Assembly (NCBI GenBank): GCA_947345935.1
Contig: CAMZZN010000006.1
Location: 1-64,000 of the forward strand
Reading direction: 5' to 3'
Origin: an uncultured Ruminococcus sp.
Lineage (GTDB): Bacteria; Bacillota; Clostridia; Oscillospirales; Ruminococcaceae
Length of the DNA: 64,000 nucleotides
The number at the start of each line of letters is the position of its first letter. The first letter of the stretch is position 1. The notes under the pieces are model-generated. The model was not told the DNA's origin. It searched no databases and worked only from the letters and a program-made list of their open reading frames with translations. Of the stretch, positions 9,072 to 15,611 are shown piece by piece. A program made the position numbers and the translations under genes.

Positions 9072-9914
9072 TTATTTTACATATTCCAGCAGCCTGTCAA
9101 TACAAAGTTCAAATGCGCTGCCGTACCACATTTCATTTTTTTCAGGGAAAGTTTTTTCAATACAATCAGCGGTATAATTAACTGAAATATCGAGGGCTTG
9201 CTGTAGAGATTTTCCGAGAGCGACAGCCCCGGTAAACACACTTGCGAAAATATCGCCGGTACCGTGACAGCGGCAGTCGATATGCCTGCGCAAAGAATAA
9301 TAAAACTTGACGTTTTCCGAGTCATAGACCGCTGCGCCCTCTCTGCCGTCGCCAAAATCAACACCTGTCAGAACAGGCGTGGGACATCCGAGACCGACCA
9401 GTTTACGCAGCACTTCTTCGACATATTGTCTGTCATAAATTTCCCTGTAAGGAATCCCAAGCAAAAGAGACGCCTCTGTCATGTTCGGCAGGATATAGTC
9501 AGCCTTACCGCAAAGCCCTGCCATTGCGGTAACAAAATCTTCGTCAAATCCGGCGTACAGTCTGCCGAAATCAGCCATGGCAGGGTCTACTGCAATGAAA
9601 TTGTCAGCAGTGCCGAAATCATCAAAGAAATCCGATACCATGCTTATCTGCTCCCTTGAACCGAGATATCCCGTATATATGCCGGAAAATCTAAGATCAA
9701 GCCTTTTCCAGTGTTCTGCGATCTTCGGTATATCTTCCGTCAGGTCACGGAAAGTATACCCGGTAAATCCGCCGGTATGAGTTGAAAGAACAGCCGTTGG
9801 AATAACGGCTGTCTCAATTCCCATGGCGGAAATTATCGGCAAGGCCACAGTGAGCGAACATTTTCCGAAACAGGAAATATCCTGTATCGTTGCAATTTTT
9901 TTCATTTTATACAC
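9072..9914 (-). CDS. Pyridoxamine/pyridoxal kinase (PfkB/ribokinase superfamily)
   Basis: KIATIQDISCFGKCSLTVALPIISAMGIETAVIPTAVLSTHTGGF...; CHGTGDIFASVFTGA. Confidence 0.85.
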   Translation of the reverse strand: MYKMKKIATIQDISCFGKCSLTVALPIISAMGIETAVIPTAVLSTHTGGFTGYTFRDLTEDIPKIAEHWKRLDLRFSGIYTGYLGSREQISMVSDFFDDFGTADNFIAVDPAMADFGRLYAGFDEDFVTAMAGLCGKADYILPNMTEASLLLGIPYREIYDRQYVEEVLRKLVGLGCPTPVLTGVDFGDGREGAAVYDSENVKFYYSLRRHIDCRCHGTGDIFASVFTGAVALGKSLQQALDISVNYTADCIEKTFPEKNEMWYGSAFELCIDRLLEYVK

Positions 9915-9926
9915 ATTCTCTCATGA

Positions 9927-11384
9927 TTAATTATCCGAATCGCCGGAGCTGTTTTCCCTGCCGGCAGCCGTTTTCAGTATGCCCAGGATAACGTCTTTAT
10001 TTGCATATTCAGCATTGCTGAGGTATTTTTCACTGAACATCTCGCTGCTGCCGAATACTATAACATGATTGTTTCCTTTATCAGATGCAGCGATAACTGC
10101 GGCACACCTGCCATCGTCTTTTCCTTCTGCATCCTTTCCGCTTATTTCAGCGATCTTTGACTGCACAGGAGCTTCAAGTACTTTTGTAATCCCCTTGCTG
10201 TTATTATCAGCTTTGATTTCTTTGGTCATAGGGGCAATAATACCTGTTGATTCATAATCTGAACCACCTGCCATTTTTTTATCATCAACTGAAAGCTTGA
10301 TATTATACCCATAATTATAAGCAGAATTTTCATCCTTTATGTAGCATCCGTCGCTTTCATTATATATAAATCCTGCATTACCGACTTCTACATCCCATTC
10401 TTTAATGAACTCGTTTATATTTTTTGTTTCCGCATCGCTCATTGCCGGAATGTACAGAAGATTTTTATTATCATTTTCAAGGAACTTTTTCAGCTTTCCT
10501 ATCTGTTCCTCTTCCAGATCCACAGCAGGCATTGGAAGAACTATCATATCGTATTGCTGAGGATCAATTTCTCCGTCGGCTATATTCAATTCGCTGCATT
10601 CGAATCCGTTGTCCTGCGTAAACAGGCTGTTTCTCATACCATTAACGATATTTACATTATCTGATCCGGCAGAGATAACGGCGACTCTTATCGGACCTTT
10701 CTCCTGTTCAGGCTCTGTAACTTTCTCCGGGGCGGCAGTCGTTTCCGGTGCTATAGATGTACCGTCTGACGTTGTAGCTTCCGTTTCTGCCGGCACATCT
10801 CCCGGCAATGTTGTTTCTCCGGGAACGGTCGTCGGCTCTTTATCGTCGTGCCTGCTGTCGGATGAAGATACAGACGAACCATTTACGTCATTCCTGTCCT
10901 TTTTATTCTTCGTCAGAATTATTCCTGTCACCGACACTACTGCAGCCACAGCCAGAACGGCGCAGACAGCAACGATCCTGCTTTTACCGGATGATTTTCT
11001 GTCACGGGACATACTTTTAATTTCCGGAACGGCTTCCCCCGGCGAATCTGAAACTGCCGCCGGAACGTCATGTCTCTGCTGCGGCAAATCAGATGATACG
11101 GGAATTTTTGATGCCGAAATCTTATTTTCCACAGCAGACGGCTTTACAGCGTCCTGAACAGGACGAACATTCGGCTGATGCTTTGCCGGATCGCTTTCCT
11201 GCTGCATATTCTTTTGCGGAGACGTATTTTCTTTCATCAGCAGAAAATCCTCGTCGTCACGGAGCAGAAGCGTGATTTCCGGCGCTTTGAAATAGTTGTG
11301 TTCGCAGACAGAATTGTTATTCTCGCCGCAGAACCGGCAAAGTCCGGAGCTTTCAAGTTTTTTTCCGCATATTATGCAAAACAT
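9927..11384 (-). CDS. Zinc-ribbon membrane protein with extracellular GldG/GATase1-like domain
   Basis: N-term CIICGKKLESSGLCRFCGE; TM VAVCAVLAVAAVVSVTGIIL; C-term VAVISAGSDNVNIVNGMRNSL...VIVFGSSEMFS.K.LS. Confidence 0.6.
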   Translation of the reverse strand: MFCIICGKKLESSGLCRFCGENNNSVCEHNYFKAPEITLLLRDDEDFLLMKENTSPQKNMQQESDPAKHQPNVRPVQDAVKPSAVENKISASKIPVSSDLPQQRHDVPAAVSDSPGEAVPEIKSMSRDRKSSGKSRIVAVCAVLAVAAVVSVTGIILTKNKKDRNDVNGSSVSSSDSRHDDKEPTTVPGETTLPGDVPAETEATTSDGTSIAPETTAAPEKVTEPEQEKGPIRVAVISAGSDNVNIVNGMRNSLFTQDNGFECSELNIADGEIDPQQYDMIVLPMPAVDLEEEQIGKLKKFLENDNKNLLYIPAMSDAETKNINEFIKEWDVEVGNAGFIYNESDGCYIKDENSAYNYGYNIKLSVDDKKMAGGSDYESTGIIAPMTKEIKADNNSKGITKVLEAPVQSKIAEISGKDAEGKDDGRCAAVIAASDKGNNHVIVFGSSEMFSEKYLSNAEYANKDVILGILKTAAGRENSSGDSDN

Positions 11385-11386
11385 TT

Positions 11387-11977
11387 CTACACATCCTTTA
11401 TAATTATATATTTACTTTTATCTGTTGTCTCTATGCCGACCGCATCGTCTGTATCCTCCCGGATATAAACGACAGGATCGGATGTTTCAGGGTCTGTTTC
11501 GTAACCGTCTTCTCTTTCACATATTATTGCAACAATCAAAAAAATAAAAATAGTTATAGCGATTATAAATAAAATAATTTTAATCCTCTTTGATCTTTTT
11601 TCCTGCTGCTCTTTTTTAAGTTCGATCAGAAAATCATCATCGTCATCATGATCGTGCGTTTCATAGGGTATGCCCTCCCTGAACGCCGGAATTTCCTCCG
11701 AAGGCGGATATTCTTCCGGATACGGCTCGTGGATGCGGGTATAAACGGCGTCTCCGAATATATCGCCCTTTACCGGATCAGAAGATTTTTCTTCTTTCTC
11801 ATGCGGAACCGCATCCGCTGCCGGTTTTATATGCTTACCGGCATTTTCCTTTACAGAGTCATCATATTTTTTCATTTCCTCCGTAAGACGCAGTGAGTAT
11901 GATTTTTCAGTACCGCAAATAAAGCAGCTTCCCGAATCATCGGGATTATTCATTTCACACTTCACACATTTCCACAT
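11387..11977 (-). CDS. RanBP2-type zinc-finger single-pass membrane protein
   Basis: MWKCVKCEMNNPDDSGSCFICGTEK; TM IIKIILFIIAITIFIFLIVAII. Confidence 0.6.
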   Translation of the reverse strand: MWKCVKCEMNNPDDSGSCFICGTEKSYSLRLTEEMKKYDDSVKENAGKHIKPAADAVPHEKEEKSSDPVKGDIFGDAVYTRIHEPYPEEYPPSEEIPAFREGIPYETHDHDDDDDFLIELKKEQQEKRSKRIKIILFIIAITIFIFLIVAIICEREDGYETDPETSDPVVYIREDTDDAVGIETTDKSKYIIIKDV

Positions 11978-12002
11978 ATTACATCCTCATTTTCATATAT
12001 CG

Positions 12003-13007
12003 TCATTTACCGCCGTTACTTTTCTTCATATTTATCACAAGACCGCTGCTTGTAACCCTCGAACCGGATTTTTCCGAAGATTTCTTTACAGACGTACGCT
12101 CGGCAACCTCAGGACTCTTTCCGCCAAGACGTCGGAATACCTCAAACGCATCAGGACGTTTTTCCGGATCGGCGCAAAGCATATCCCTGATAAGCTCACG
12201 GCTGCTTTTGTCAATCTCATCGGAGATCTGCGGCTCGTCCCCATTAAGAACAGCCTGTCCGAGGCAATCGTATCCTTCGCTGTAACCGGGATGCTTTCCA
12301 CAGAGAATAATATGGAAAAGTACGCCAAGAGCAAATACGTCCGATTTCGGAGTTACAGTCGCTTCCTCCTCAGCCATATAAAGAAGCATTTCCGGCGAAA
12401 AATAAACCTGATCTCCGGTCATATCGTCAGGCTCCGGCGGCTCGTCTTCAAGGAAACTGGCGTCAAAGTCTATTATCTTGACCGTAAAAAAGCCGCCTAC
12501 AGTTTCCTTGAGAATAAGATTTTCAGGTTTCAGATCGGAATGAACCACGTTTTTTTCTGCCAGCCGTGATATCTCATACGCAAGTATCTTAAGAATGATC
12601 TGCTTCTGCTCGTCGGATTTCTTAAAAATATCCATAAAACTCACGCCGCATGATCCGATCTTTTCCGTAACCAGGTAGTATGTATTCTTATCCTTGAAAA
12701 AGTCCAGCGGATTTACGATGTTGCTTCCGCCGCATTCAAGTATGGCTTTATAGACTCTCGAATGAGTACTGTACCATTCTTCGCACTGCTCCACCATTCT
12801 TACACGGAGAGACTCGTACATATCCGCATCCGGATCAGGAAATTTCGGTGTAAGGAATCTCTTGATAAAGAACTGCTTGCCGTATTTATACGCATATCCC
12901 CACGTACAGTTTCCGGCATTATTTGCGGTAAGCGGCTGCCTTATGATGAAGCCGTTTACAGCATAGGGAGAGAAACCGCTTGTTCCTATACTATTTTTTA
13001 CTTCCAT
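12003..13007 (-). CDS. Serine/threonine protein kinase
   Basis: VVHSDLKPENLIL (HSD instead of HRD), IIDFDASF (DFD instead of DFG), SPEMLLY...KSDVFALGVLFHIILCGKHP. Confidence 0.85.
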   Translation of the reverse strand: MEVKNSIGTSGFSPYAVNGFIIRQPLTANNAGNCTWGYAYKYGKQFFIKRFLTPKFPDPDADMYESLRVRMVEQCEEWYSTHSRVYKAILECGGSNIVNPLDFFKDKNTYYLVTEKIGSCGVSFMDIFKKSDEQKQIILKILAYEISRLAEKNVVHSDLKPENLILKETVGGFFTVKIIDFDASFLEDEPPEPDDMTGDQVYFSPEMLLYMAEEEATVTPKSDVFALGVLFHIILCGKHPGYSEGYDCLGQAVLNGDEPQISDEIDKSSRELIRDMLCADPEKRPDAFEVFRRLGGKSPEVAERTSVKKSSEKSGSRVTSSGLVINMKKSNGGK

Positions 13008-13999
13008 TATTTCAGTTCTCCGCTTTTCCTGATATAATCACGGGCGTAATACGACGTCTTATAACTCTCCCAAAGCTGTTTCAGCTGTTCTTCATCAGCT
13101 CCGTTCCGGCGTTCGATATAATTCTTCTGAACGTATATCTGACGCATATTATAGTACTTTTTCATATCATCAAAATCATCAAAACCGAAGCATGAGATCG
13201 CAAGAGTAAAATCGTCTCCGGTCACAGCCTTTATTCTATCTCTGAGACGTGCCTGCCATTGCGCAGGACTTGAGGATTCTTCCAGTGTCTGAAGTATCAC
13301 ATTTTCAAAATCCATAGGAGTAAGAAAATAGGCAAAGCATCCGTCCGTTGCGTTTATAAGCATAGAAGGACGTGAAAAAGCCAATGTTTCATTATGAAGC
13401 GTAAATGATCTGTCTCCGTTGGCAACATTGGTCAGAACGCCGTCCTCCCTGAGATTAAGAAAAGCATCATCGGCATTCGCATCAATATCGTCAGCCGTCA
13501 CCTGATAAAGTCCTTTATCGTCAAGTATATATCCTCTTGAATCGCCTGCCCAGAGATAATTGCATAAAGTAAAGTTGCCTGCTCCTATGGCAGTAATTAT
13601 ACTTACGGTAGTAGGAAAGCTCTTGCTGAGACTTCCGCCTACCTGTACTCCTCCGCTCGACATAAGTTTCTTTTTCACATTTGCAAGTTTTCCGGAAATA
13701 CATTCCTGAATCTGCTGAAAAAGCTGGAGCTGTTCCTTTTGATTTTTAACATTCTTAAATTTTTCTCCATGTCTCTTAAAGAATGCGTCTGCCGCAAACG
13801 CAGCCGTCTGAGAGCCTATATAAGCTCCCGTGCGACCGTTTACTTCAGGGTATCTCTTTCCGCCGATACCTCCGCAGCCGTCAAATACGCCTGTAACAAC
13901 AAGCCCGTTTTCATAGCAGCCAACAAATCCGGAATCCTCGCCGCAGTCCGGAACAGCTTCTGCATGAATAAAAAATGGTTTAATAGTTGAAAGATTCAT
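13007..13999 (-). CDS. PP2C-family protein phosphatase
   Basis: VTGVFDGCGGIGG, LWAGDSRGYIL, INATDGCF, VTGDDFTLAI metal-binding motifs. Confidence 0.85.
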   Translation of the reverse strand: MNLSTIKPFFIHAEAVPDCGEDSGFVGCYENGLVVTGVFDGCGGIGGKRYPEVNGRTGAYIGSQTAAFAADAFFKRHGEKFKNVKNQKEQLQLFQQIQECISGKLANVKKKLMSSGGVQVGGSLSKSFPTTVSIITAIGAGNFTLCNYLWAGDSRGYILDDKGLYQVTADDIDANADDAFLNLREDGVLTNVANGDRSFTLHNETLAFSRPSMLINATDGCFAYFLTPMDFENVILQTLEESSSPAQWQARLRDRIKAVTGDDFTLAISCFGFDDFDDMKKYYNMRQIYVQKNYIERRNGADEEQLKQLWESYKTSYYARDYIRKSGELK

Positions 14000-14079
14000 T
14001 TTGTTCCCTCTGTATCACATAATAATCAGCCGCTGCGCCGCAGCATTATGCAGGCATCGGCGGTAATGGTTTTATTTCT

Positions 14080-14260
14080 TATAGGCGACACCGCACAAAG
14101 ATTGTGCGGCAGATGCGCAGTAAGACTTTTCGTCAGATTGTACAGAAATTTCGCAGGCATACTGTCGTATGTCAAGAAATTTATGTGTAAGATGACGGAA
14201 AATATTCAAGCAGATGACGTGCAAAGCCGTCAGGCGTGCTTTGTGCGATGTTGCCTTATA
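14080..14260. mobile_element. MITE-like non-autonomous element with TIR TATAAGGCAACATCGCACAAAG
   Basis: Left TATAGGCGACACCGCACAAAG; right (RC) TATAAGGCAACATCGCACAAAG; internal hairpin CCGCACAAAGATTGTGCGG and central palindrome CGTCAG...ATGACG. Confidence 0.7.
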
Positions 14261-14978
14261 TACTCTGTACGATTGCGCTGATGATCTCCTGATATTGTAT
14301 CTCCTTGAGTCCGCCTCCTGCAACGGAAGGAAAATGAATAACATTATTCCAGTTATTCACGATATTGTCCCAGGGATACTCGGTCTCGGGATCATAGCTG
14401 CCGGGTTCCTTGCCAGCCGGCGTATAAAGGATAAGTCTCTTGGCACGGCGATTTACATATCCGTTCTGCTCATTTTCCCACCAGTCGGTAAGCTCCCTGA
14501 AATCATTTGCCATACCTTCGGGATAATACTTCGATTCTTTTCCGAATCCGATAGGATGCGGCGGTGCATCTGACCAGAGAACAATGATCTGACGCCTTTT
14601 TGTTCCTATTGCGCTCCATTCCGAACGGATAGCATATCCTAAAGCCTCAAGACCGTCTTCTGGAATATCTCCGCCGCCGAAAGCCCTGATGCCTTTTACG
14701 GTGTCGGTAAACTCCTCGGTATCGTCCGGAAGCGAAAAGAAATCGGTAACGAGCATAGCGTCGTCCATATCCTCCAAATAGTCACGAAAAGCTATTACCT
14801 TTATCCTCACGGATTCAACACGCTTGCCTTTGGCATTGAGCGCATCCATAAGATCAGTATAAAAGCTCAAAGCATTTTCTTTTACCATATTAAGTACGGG
14901 ATTCATGCTTCCTGTTGCATCTATACAAAAAACAAGATCCACGGTATAGGTCATCTGACCCAGATTACCCTGCTGCAT
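14256..14978 (-). CDS. vWA domain protein (TerY-like)
   Basis: VDLVFCIDATGSMNPVLNMVKENA... MIDAS DATGS; IIVLWSDAPPHP. Confidence 0.85.
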   Translation of the reverse strand: MQQGNLGQMTYTVDLVFCIDATGSMNPVLNMVKENALSFYTDLMDALNAKGKRVESVRIKVIAFRDYLEDMDDAMLVTDFFSLPDDTEEFTDTVKGIRAFGGGDIPEDGLEALGYAIRSEWSAIGTKRRQIIVLWSDAPPHPIGFGKESKYYPEGMANDFRELTDWWENEQNGYVNRRAKRLILYTPAGKEPGSYDPETEYPWDNIVNNWNNVIHFPSVAGGGLKEIQYQEIISAIVQSI

Positions 14979-14993
14979 AAAATACCTCCAATA

Positions 14994-15611
14994 TCAAAGC
15001 TTTGGCGGCTTGTGGAAATTTCTCTCTGCCGCTCTGAGTTCCTTTTCTGTTATACCGCCGTTATCGACATGGACTGCCGGTTCAGATTTTGCAGCCGGCG
15101 AGCTGCAGATTACCGGTTCAGCGGTTTCTTCCGGCTTCGCTATGACTGTGCCGGTATCAACAGGATTGCCGCATACCACACAGGTATTGCTGCCAGGAGC
15201 GACAATGGCATTACAAAGAGGACATCTCCGGAGAATCTCCTCAAATAAATATCCGCAGTTACTGCAGAATTTTGAATCATCGTCGAAAGACGCACCGCAA
15301 GCGGGACATACCCTTTCTTCAGCCGCAGGCAGTACAGGATCAACCGCAGGCGAATCCGGCACAGAAATGAATGGAGCAGGTTCCTCATACCGCTTTCCGC
15401 ATACGCAGCAAAAGCAGGCGTCGTCATCCATAGCAGCGCCGCAGAACGGACATACTTTGTTTGCCGTTCCTGCTGAAATACTTCCGGATACAGGTGTTTC
15501 CGTAAATCTTGCAGGCTGAACGTCAGCGTCCAGTCTGAACCCGCATTCCATGCAGAATATACTGTCATCCGTCATAGATGCACCGCAGTTCGTGCAGTAA
15601 ATATTACCCAT
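14994..15611 (-). CDS. Multi-zinc-ribbon protein (four CxxC...CxxC ribbons)
   Basis: CTNCGASMTDDSIFCMECG, CPFCGAAMDDDACFCCVCG, CPACGASFDDDSKFCSNCG, CPLCNAIVAPGSNTCVVCG. Confidence 0.8.
   Translation of the reverse strand: MGNIYCTNCGASMTDDSIFCMECGFRLDADVQPARFTETPVSGSISAGTANKVCPFCGAAMDDDACFCCVCGKRYEEPAPFISVPDSPAVDPVLPAAEERVCPACGASFDDDSKFCSNCGYLFEEILRRCPLCNAIVAPGSNTCVVCGNPVDTGTVIAKPEETAEPVICSSPAAKSEPAVHVDNGGITEKELRAAERNFHKPPKL

Follow-up and report, generated by a model that had tools for sequence, protein, structure and literature searches.

The 64-kb stretch of DNA analyzed here, referred to below as the window, comes from an uncultured Ruminococcus sp. and carries six genes on the minus strand (positions 15611 to 9927) whose products are predicted to form a membrane-linked phosphosignaling system. 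The first-pass annotation of this DNA had listed them, in transcription order, as genes for a four-zinc-ribbon protein, a von Willebrand factor A (vWA) protein, a PP2C phosphatase, a Ser/Thr protein kinase (STK), a RanBP2-type zinc finger membrane protein, and a zinc ribbon membrane protein. Open reading frames (ORFs), Pfam matches, and a structure model of the phosphatase confirmed the six genes and their order. Designated P1 to P6 (Table 1), they are separated by intergenic gaps of 15, 256, -1, 25, and 2 bp, an operon-like arrangement. The six make up a genuine and conserved signaling cluster of bacteria, with a core that is also found in other gut Clostridia and on a plasmid of Herpetosiphon.

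TABLE 1 Genes and other features of the window cluster, and orphan phosphatase genes at the same site in relatives
Feature	Position	Strand	Description	Evidence or remark
P1	14994..15611	(-)	205 aa, soluble, four zinc ribbons; first cluster gene	Pfam DZR, 80.7 bits
P2	14256..14978	(-)	240-aa vWA protein of VWA_4 type; metal ion-dependent adhesion site (MIDAS) DATGSM	Core gene
P3	13007..13999	(-)	330-aa PP2C-type Ser/Thr phosphatase	Core gene
P4	12003..13007	(-)	334-aa Ser/Thr protein kinase	Core gene; 1-bp overlap with P3
P5	11387..11977	(-)	196 aa, N-terminal RanBP2-type zinc finger (WKCVKCEMNNPDDSGSCFIC) and one transmembrane (TM) helix	Core gene
P6	9927..11384	(-)	485 aa, zinc ribbon-TM-Ser/Thr-rich linker-ABC_transp_aux/GldG-type outer domain	Variable envelope partner
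PdxK-like sugar/pyridoxal kinase gene	9072..9914	(-)	12 bp downstream of P6	PF08543, 65.4 bits
Terminator-like hairpin	15826-15798	(-)	After the upstream substrate-binding protein (SBP) gene	Consensus scan only
Promoter-like site	15750-15722	(-)	Upstream of P1	Consensus match only
MITE-like repeat (miniature inverted-repeat transposable element)	14078..14257		Terminal inverted repeats; between the vWA (P2) and PP2C (P3) genes	
Full-length orphan PP2C homologues	L085 3944-4918; L086 9244-10218; L087 10761-11735			

P2 scored 33.2 bits against Pfam VWA_4 (cut-off, 27), and its residues D20, T22, S24, D104, and D137 were invariant across 22 homologues. For P4, which matched Pkinase with 98.3 bits, the catalytic residues K49, H156-x-D158 (HSD), and D180-F-D182 (DFD) were invariant in 16 homologues; the protein has no CxxC pair and hence no fused zinc ribbon. 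P3 had no Pfam PP2C match, and a PP2C_2 search of the genome recovered six other PP2Cs and missed it. An AlphaFold2 model of P3, built from 23 homologues, reached a mean predicted local distance difference test score (pLDDT) of 89.4, and a Foldseek search with it matched solved bacterial PP2Cs, tPphA best (E 4.2e-13, probability 1.00). The motifs ED, DG, GDSR, TDG, and GDD are complete, with every metal-binding aspartate present, and P3 is, by its predicted structure, a protein of PP2C fold.

The zinc finger of P5 scored 20.4 bits against PF00641, below the cut-off of 27, whereas its relatives scored 27.6 to 29.8 bits. Pfam scans of P5 and its relatives found no FHA domain. P6 matched the ABC_transp_aux/GldG-type family PF09822 with 40.6 bits (cut-off, 34.7) and has an N-terminal CxxC pair and a single TM helix; TM helices were assigned by a simple hydropathy count throughout. 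Its AlphaFold2 model was poor (pLDDT 41.6) and was not used, and extracellular sensing by the cluster is a guess. In P1, four CxxC...CxxC ribbons were recognized by eye. Homologues of P1 lie upstream of the vWA gene in some relatives only (loci L073, L074, L075, L084, and L091; L and G numbers denote our loci and genomes, respectively).

To follow the cluster beyond the window, homologues of the vWA and PP2C proteins were searched for in 299 relatives, in the phylum, in the class Clostridia, and in plasmids, phages, and viral contigs, and about 50 loci were read with 6 to 20 kb of context. The genomes searched are a sample and include draft assemblies, and ORFs in the fetched loci were called mechanically. 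The vWA, PP2C, and STK families were all present in 44 loci, a count that includes one decayed locus (L084), so that the association pointed out in the first-pass annotation recurs and goes beyond chance. In 41 of these 44, the same strand carried, no more than 4 kb away, an ORF matching the RanBP2 pattern (W-x-C-x2-C-x3-N...C-x2-C). None of the ORFs in 107 kb of control DNA taken elsewhere in the window's genome had this pattern, and P5 is the sole ORF with the motif in the window. Across 149 relatives, nearly all PF00641 matches at E < 1.5e-4 fell inside a vWA/PP2C/STK/zinc finger cluster, and among 14 control genomes a match was found in one, that of Sulfolobus acidocaldarius. Flanking genes varied between loci; vWA, PP2C, and STK remained together. 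The strongest single case of the four-gene core is plasmid pHAU01 of Herpetosiphon aurantiacus (Chloroflexota; CP000876.1, L113), on which a vWA gene (product 49% identical to P2) is followed by PP2C and STK genes and by an unannotated 82-aa ORF at 9854-10102, which encodes a RanBP2-type finger plus a TM helix and overlaps the end of the kinase gene.

The core thus delimited consists of vWA, PP2C, STK, and a RanBP2 zinc finger protein that in most cases has a TM helix; P1 and P6 belong to the variable partners. Of the six cluster genes, four co-occur elsewhere, and of the two zinc finger membrane proteins that had been regarded as an accessory set, both are present, but the RanBP2 partner belongs to the conserved core. 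The distribution is patchy, with strong vWA matches in 32 of the 299 relatives. Searches of viral contigs yielded a single weak vWA match. A phylum-wide PP2C profile search returned own-family and Stp-like proteins only, which indicates that, within the searched sample, this PP2C family has few members beyond Clostridia. None of the other PP2Cs of the genome or the PrkC-type kinases checked (L107-L110) had a vWA neighbor of the P2 family.

Most other loci resembled the window in having a single-domain PP2C and kinase and a zinc finger on a TM protein. In a second form (clade B; L093-L106, about 15 loci, all in the genus of the window), PP2C and kinase are longer, the RanBP2 protein is soluble and carries Sel1 repeats, and an Mbeg1-like (PF11187) gene is often next. 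Loci from Clostridia families other than that of the window usually encode, next to the first, a second zinc ribbon-TM protein, which has a CGGFA motif. The envelope partners around the core vary as well: P6 in the window and, elsewhere, zinc ribbon-TPR-NPCBM, CAP, calcineurin-like phosphoesterase, and LPXTG proteins. At L074 (4632-19900), about nine zinc ribbon/TM proteins stand in a row around the triad, one of them with TPR and NPCBM domains. L198 (G060:C6) encodes a stand-alone protein that combines two RanBP2-type fingers with a TM helix, in a genome whose vWA/PP2C/STK cluster lies on another contig. Clusters at L155 (10646-12766) and L160 (11179-12618) adjoin a serine recombinase-like gene and phage terminase-like genes, as judged by eye, and L115 (MT836186.1, labeled "Bacteriophage sp.," unverified) has a family vWA and PP2C beside an integrase-like gene. 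The decayed copy at L084 (3965-13575) has its vWA, PP2C, and kinase genes each in pieces. Selenocysteine or other recoding in PP2C homologues flagged as having one internal TGA was rejected: the alignments overran a normal stop codon, and only L084 is truly broken.

Three genomes (G011, G042, and G118; loci L085-L087) keep PP2C, P6 (still adjacent to PP2C), and the PdxK-like gene at the window's genomic site without vWA, kinase, or P5. Genome-wide, they contained no family-type vWA and no family-type kinase; their only kinase matches were PrkC-like, with at most ~75 bits versus more than 430. In these orphan PP2Cs, the catalytic aspartates are gone in three or four motifs (EN or ED; N[ST]R for DSR; SEE, SAD, or SSD for TDG; GSD, GGD, or GGE for GDD). 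In a PP2C tree, the orphans grouped as a single clade (100/100) whose sister is the window plus L091 (99/97). Since intact clusters branch outside the orphan clade, loss of vWA, kinase, and P5 is the simplest reading. Pairwise dN/dS (the ratio of nonsynonymous to synonymous substitution rates) among the orphans was 0.17 to 0.21, compared to 0.22 for the active pair window/L091, indicating purifying selection. Judged from these substitution patterns, the orphan protein is retained, probably for binding, without catalysis. This loss of catalytic aspartates in genomes without the kinase couples phosphatase activity to the kinase and hints at a noncatalytic link between PP2C and P6. The orphan pseudophosphatases offer a natural test of a phosphatase role beyond catalysis.

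With moderate confidence, we interpret the cluster as a membrane-tethered, reversible Ser/Thr phosphorylation switch in which the vWA protein serves as an adaptor. Kinase P4 and phosphatase P3 would act oppositely on shared targets, and P2 would dock both to the zinc finger. The cytoplasmic RanBP2-type finger of the single-pass protein P5 would hold the complex at the membrane, and P5, in the window lineage also P6, would be the likely phosphoregulated outputs that carry a signal to or from the envelope. This interpretation builds on computed results, namely, the gene identities, the conserved catalytic residues, the four-gene core, and the loss of aspartates where the kinase is gone; the active-site residues of kinase, PP2C, and vWA MIDAS are all intact. 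An experimental precedent for the docking step comes from archaea: ArnB, a vWA protein, is bound by the RanBP2-type zinc finger of ArnA, and the kinase ArnC and the phosphatase PP2A tune this binding (PMC12852372, PMC6509490). ArnA was among the best PDB matches of the P5 finger profile (5a8i, E 0.059).

Several observations weigh against this interpretation. Three triads (L159, L160, and L114) have no motif-matching zinc finger. Because many loci are close relatives and all were fetched by vWA/PP2C similarity, the 41 of 44 do not represent 44 independent events. Membrane anchoring is not universal, since in clade B the zinc finger protein carries Sel1 repeats and lacks a TM helix. The PDB matches of the zinc finger profile were weak (E 0.006-0.06), and the P2 vWA profile missed the ArnB and ArnE structures, i.e., there is no ArnB homology by sequence; in ArnAB, moreover, the finger contacts the beta-sandwich and C-terminal domains of ArnB, which P2 lacks. 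The substrates and their sharing by kinase and phosphatase, the binding of the vWA protein to the zinc finger, and the direction of signaling are all inferred. More tentatively, we propose that the cluster represents an undescribed bacterial system, independent of TerY-P, in which a vWA/kinase/PP2C switch uses the RanBP2 finger as its receptor arm at the membrane, and that in some lineages, once the kinase was lost, the phosphatase became a partner of the envelope protein P6 that no longer has catalytic activity.

An unlikely alternative is anti-phage defense, in which the kinase would sense infection, phosphorylate host proteins, and stop growth while the phosphatase restrains it. The best PADLOC match of the kinase was indeed mad6 of MADS (104.7 bits), and TerY-P-like modules with an OB-fold kinase have been reported to defend (PMC11090510); the patchy distribution, the plasmid copies, the phage terminase-like genes beside L155 and L160, and the Mbeg1-like genes of clade B would also fit. 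However, the similarity to mad6 is confined to the kinase domain, and neither the vWA protein nor PP2C had a convincing PADLOC match. The window cluster has no nuclease, methylase, or nucleoside triphosphatase partner and no evident effector, and its neighborhood consists of dTDP-rhamnose-type, SBP, and NUDIX genes. Purifying selection on the inactive PP2C together with P6 better fits an envelope function.

It is even less probable that the P5 finger binds RNA, as in ZRANB2 and RBM5, and that the cluster uses phosphorylation to control translation or RNA decay close to the membrane. The zinc finger profile did match RBM10 and RBM5, whose zinc fingers bind RNA, but RanBP2 fingers bind proteins too, and the finger of ArnA has a vWA protein as its binding partner in a protein set that closely resembles this one. 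An Rfam scan around the cluster found no known RNA element.

The first-pass annotation had likened the cluster to a TerY-P triad, which is composed of a TerY-like vWA protein, a PP2C, and a kinase with a fused C-terminal zinc ribbon (Anantharaman et al. 2012, as described in PMC11090510) and which would make it a metal- or stress-sensing phospho-switch linked to Ter or restriction genes. The same three activities are adjacent in the window, and where TerY-P kinases carry a ribbon fused to their C terminus (PMC11090510), the window has a zinc finger gene directly after the kinase. To compare the families, proteins of the IncHI2 ter region, E. coli YegL-PphC-YegI, and generic paralogues were scored with the three family profiles. 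The vWA profile gave 4 bits for TerY1/TerY3 versus 56 to 70 for unrelated secreted vWAs; the PP2C profile gave 11 bits for the ter-plasmid PP2C, no match for PphC, and 19 bits for the host Stp-like PP2C; and the kinase profile gave 16 bits for the ter kinase and 6 for YegI versus 60 to 76 for PrkC-type kinases. TerY-P members scored below generic paralogues in all three cases and are therefore less like the window family than ordinary paralogues are. A YegL query retrieved 2,328 plasmid records, most of them from enterobacteria and some of them ter plasmids; the P2 vWA query, in contrast, retrieved 11 records, with no enterobacterial (ter) plasmid among them. The reference kinase of the ter plasmid carries a visible ribbon, whereas the zinc finger of the window is a separate gene. 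Neither TerC nor TerD was found in the whole genome, as the first-pass annotation had observed for the window. Neighbors at 7 to 19 kb included no TerC/TerD or restriction genes (restriction genes elsewhere in the genome were not searched for). The proposed kinship, for which that annotation had named the vWA/PP2C clades as the test beforehand, is refuted at the clade level, and we regard membership in TerY-P as very improbable: the window cluster is not a TerY-P system, even if it may perhaps work like one. Finally, shared ancestry of one chromosomal region as the sole reason for the co-occurrence, with no functional unit behind it, would suit the many loci from one genus but is refuted by the neighborhoods, as the core stays while flanks differ, also in other Clostridia families and on the Chloroflexota plasmid.

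The 256-bp gap between P2 and P3 is filled by the MITE-like element, whose ends are GGCAACATCGCACAAAG and CTTTGTGCGGTGTCGCC; in the syntenic twin L012, which lacks the MITE at this place, the gap measures 73 bp. Elsewhere in the genome, the element is present in about six nearly full-length copies, 82-95% identical, and in many partial ones. The PdxK-like gene probably shares a transcript with P6. It adjoins P6 only at the same genomic site (L012 and L085-L087) and is not a module member elsewhere.

Literature searches of open-licence papers found no description of a vWA/PP2C/STK/RanBP2 zinc finger set, and the four-part core seems not to have been described previously. This compact signaling unit of four genes recurs in gut Clostridia; Pfam does not detect its phosphatase, and its zinc finger gene is partly unannotated. 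With TerY-P it shares vWA, PP2C, and STK genes side by side and a zinc-binding element at the kinase end of the operon; it differs in that all three proteins fall outside the TerY-P clades, in its separate, usually membrane-anchored RanBP2-type protein, and in having no Ter genes. E. coli YegL-PphC-YegI likewise has a vWA protein, a PP2C, and a kinase as neighbors, but YegL is TerY-like, PphC is a PP2C_2 protein (176.7 bits), and YegI has an HHH_5 domain and no Pkinase match; none resembles the window proteins. In type VI secretion, the kinase PpkA is opposed by the PP2C PppA. PppA was a fold match of P3 (6jkv) at 18-19% identity; unlike in that system, no type VI secretion genes were seen beside the cluster. 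A kinase(ZnR)-PP2C-vWA set also occurs in GAP1-N2 GTPase systems, which, unlike the window cluster, are actinobacterial, include GTPases and GAP1-N2, and have no reported RanBP2 finger (PMC7159879).

The RanBP2-type zinc finger is known mainly from eukaryotes and from archaeal ArnA. Like the window cluster, Sulfolobus ArnA-ArnB-ArnC/PP2A combines a RanBP2-type zinc finger, a vWA protein, a Ser/Thr kinase, and a phosphatase in one regulatory unit. The differences are that ArnA has an FHA domain, absent from P5 and its relatives; that ArnB has beta-sandwich and C-terminal helix domains, whereas P2 is a 240-aa single-domain vWA protein; and that the Arn phosphatase is PP2A and that of the window PP2C. 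By this comparison, ArnA-ArnB is best viewed as an analogue of the window cluster rather than as a system to which it belongs. If docking between vWA and RanBP2 domains does hold in bacteria, both systems would rely on a common design in which phosphorylation controls docking.

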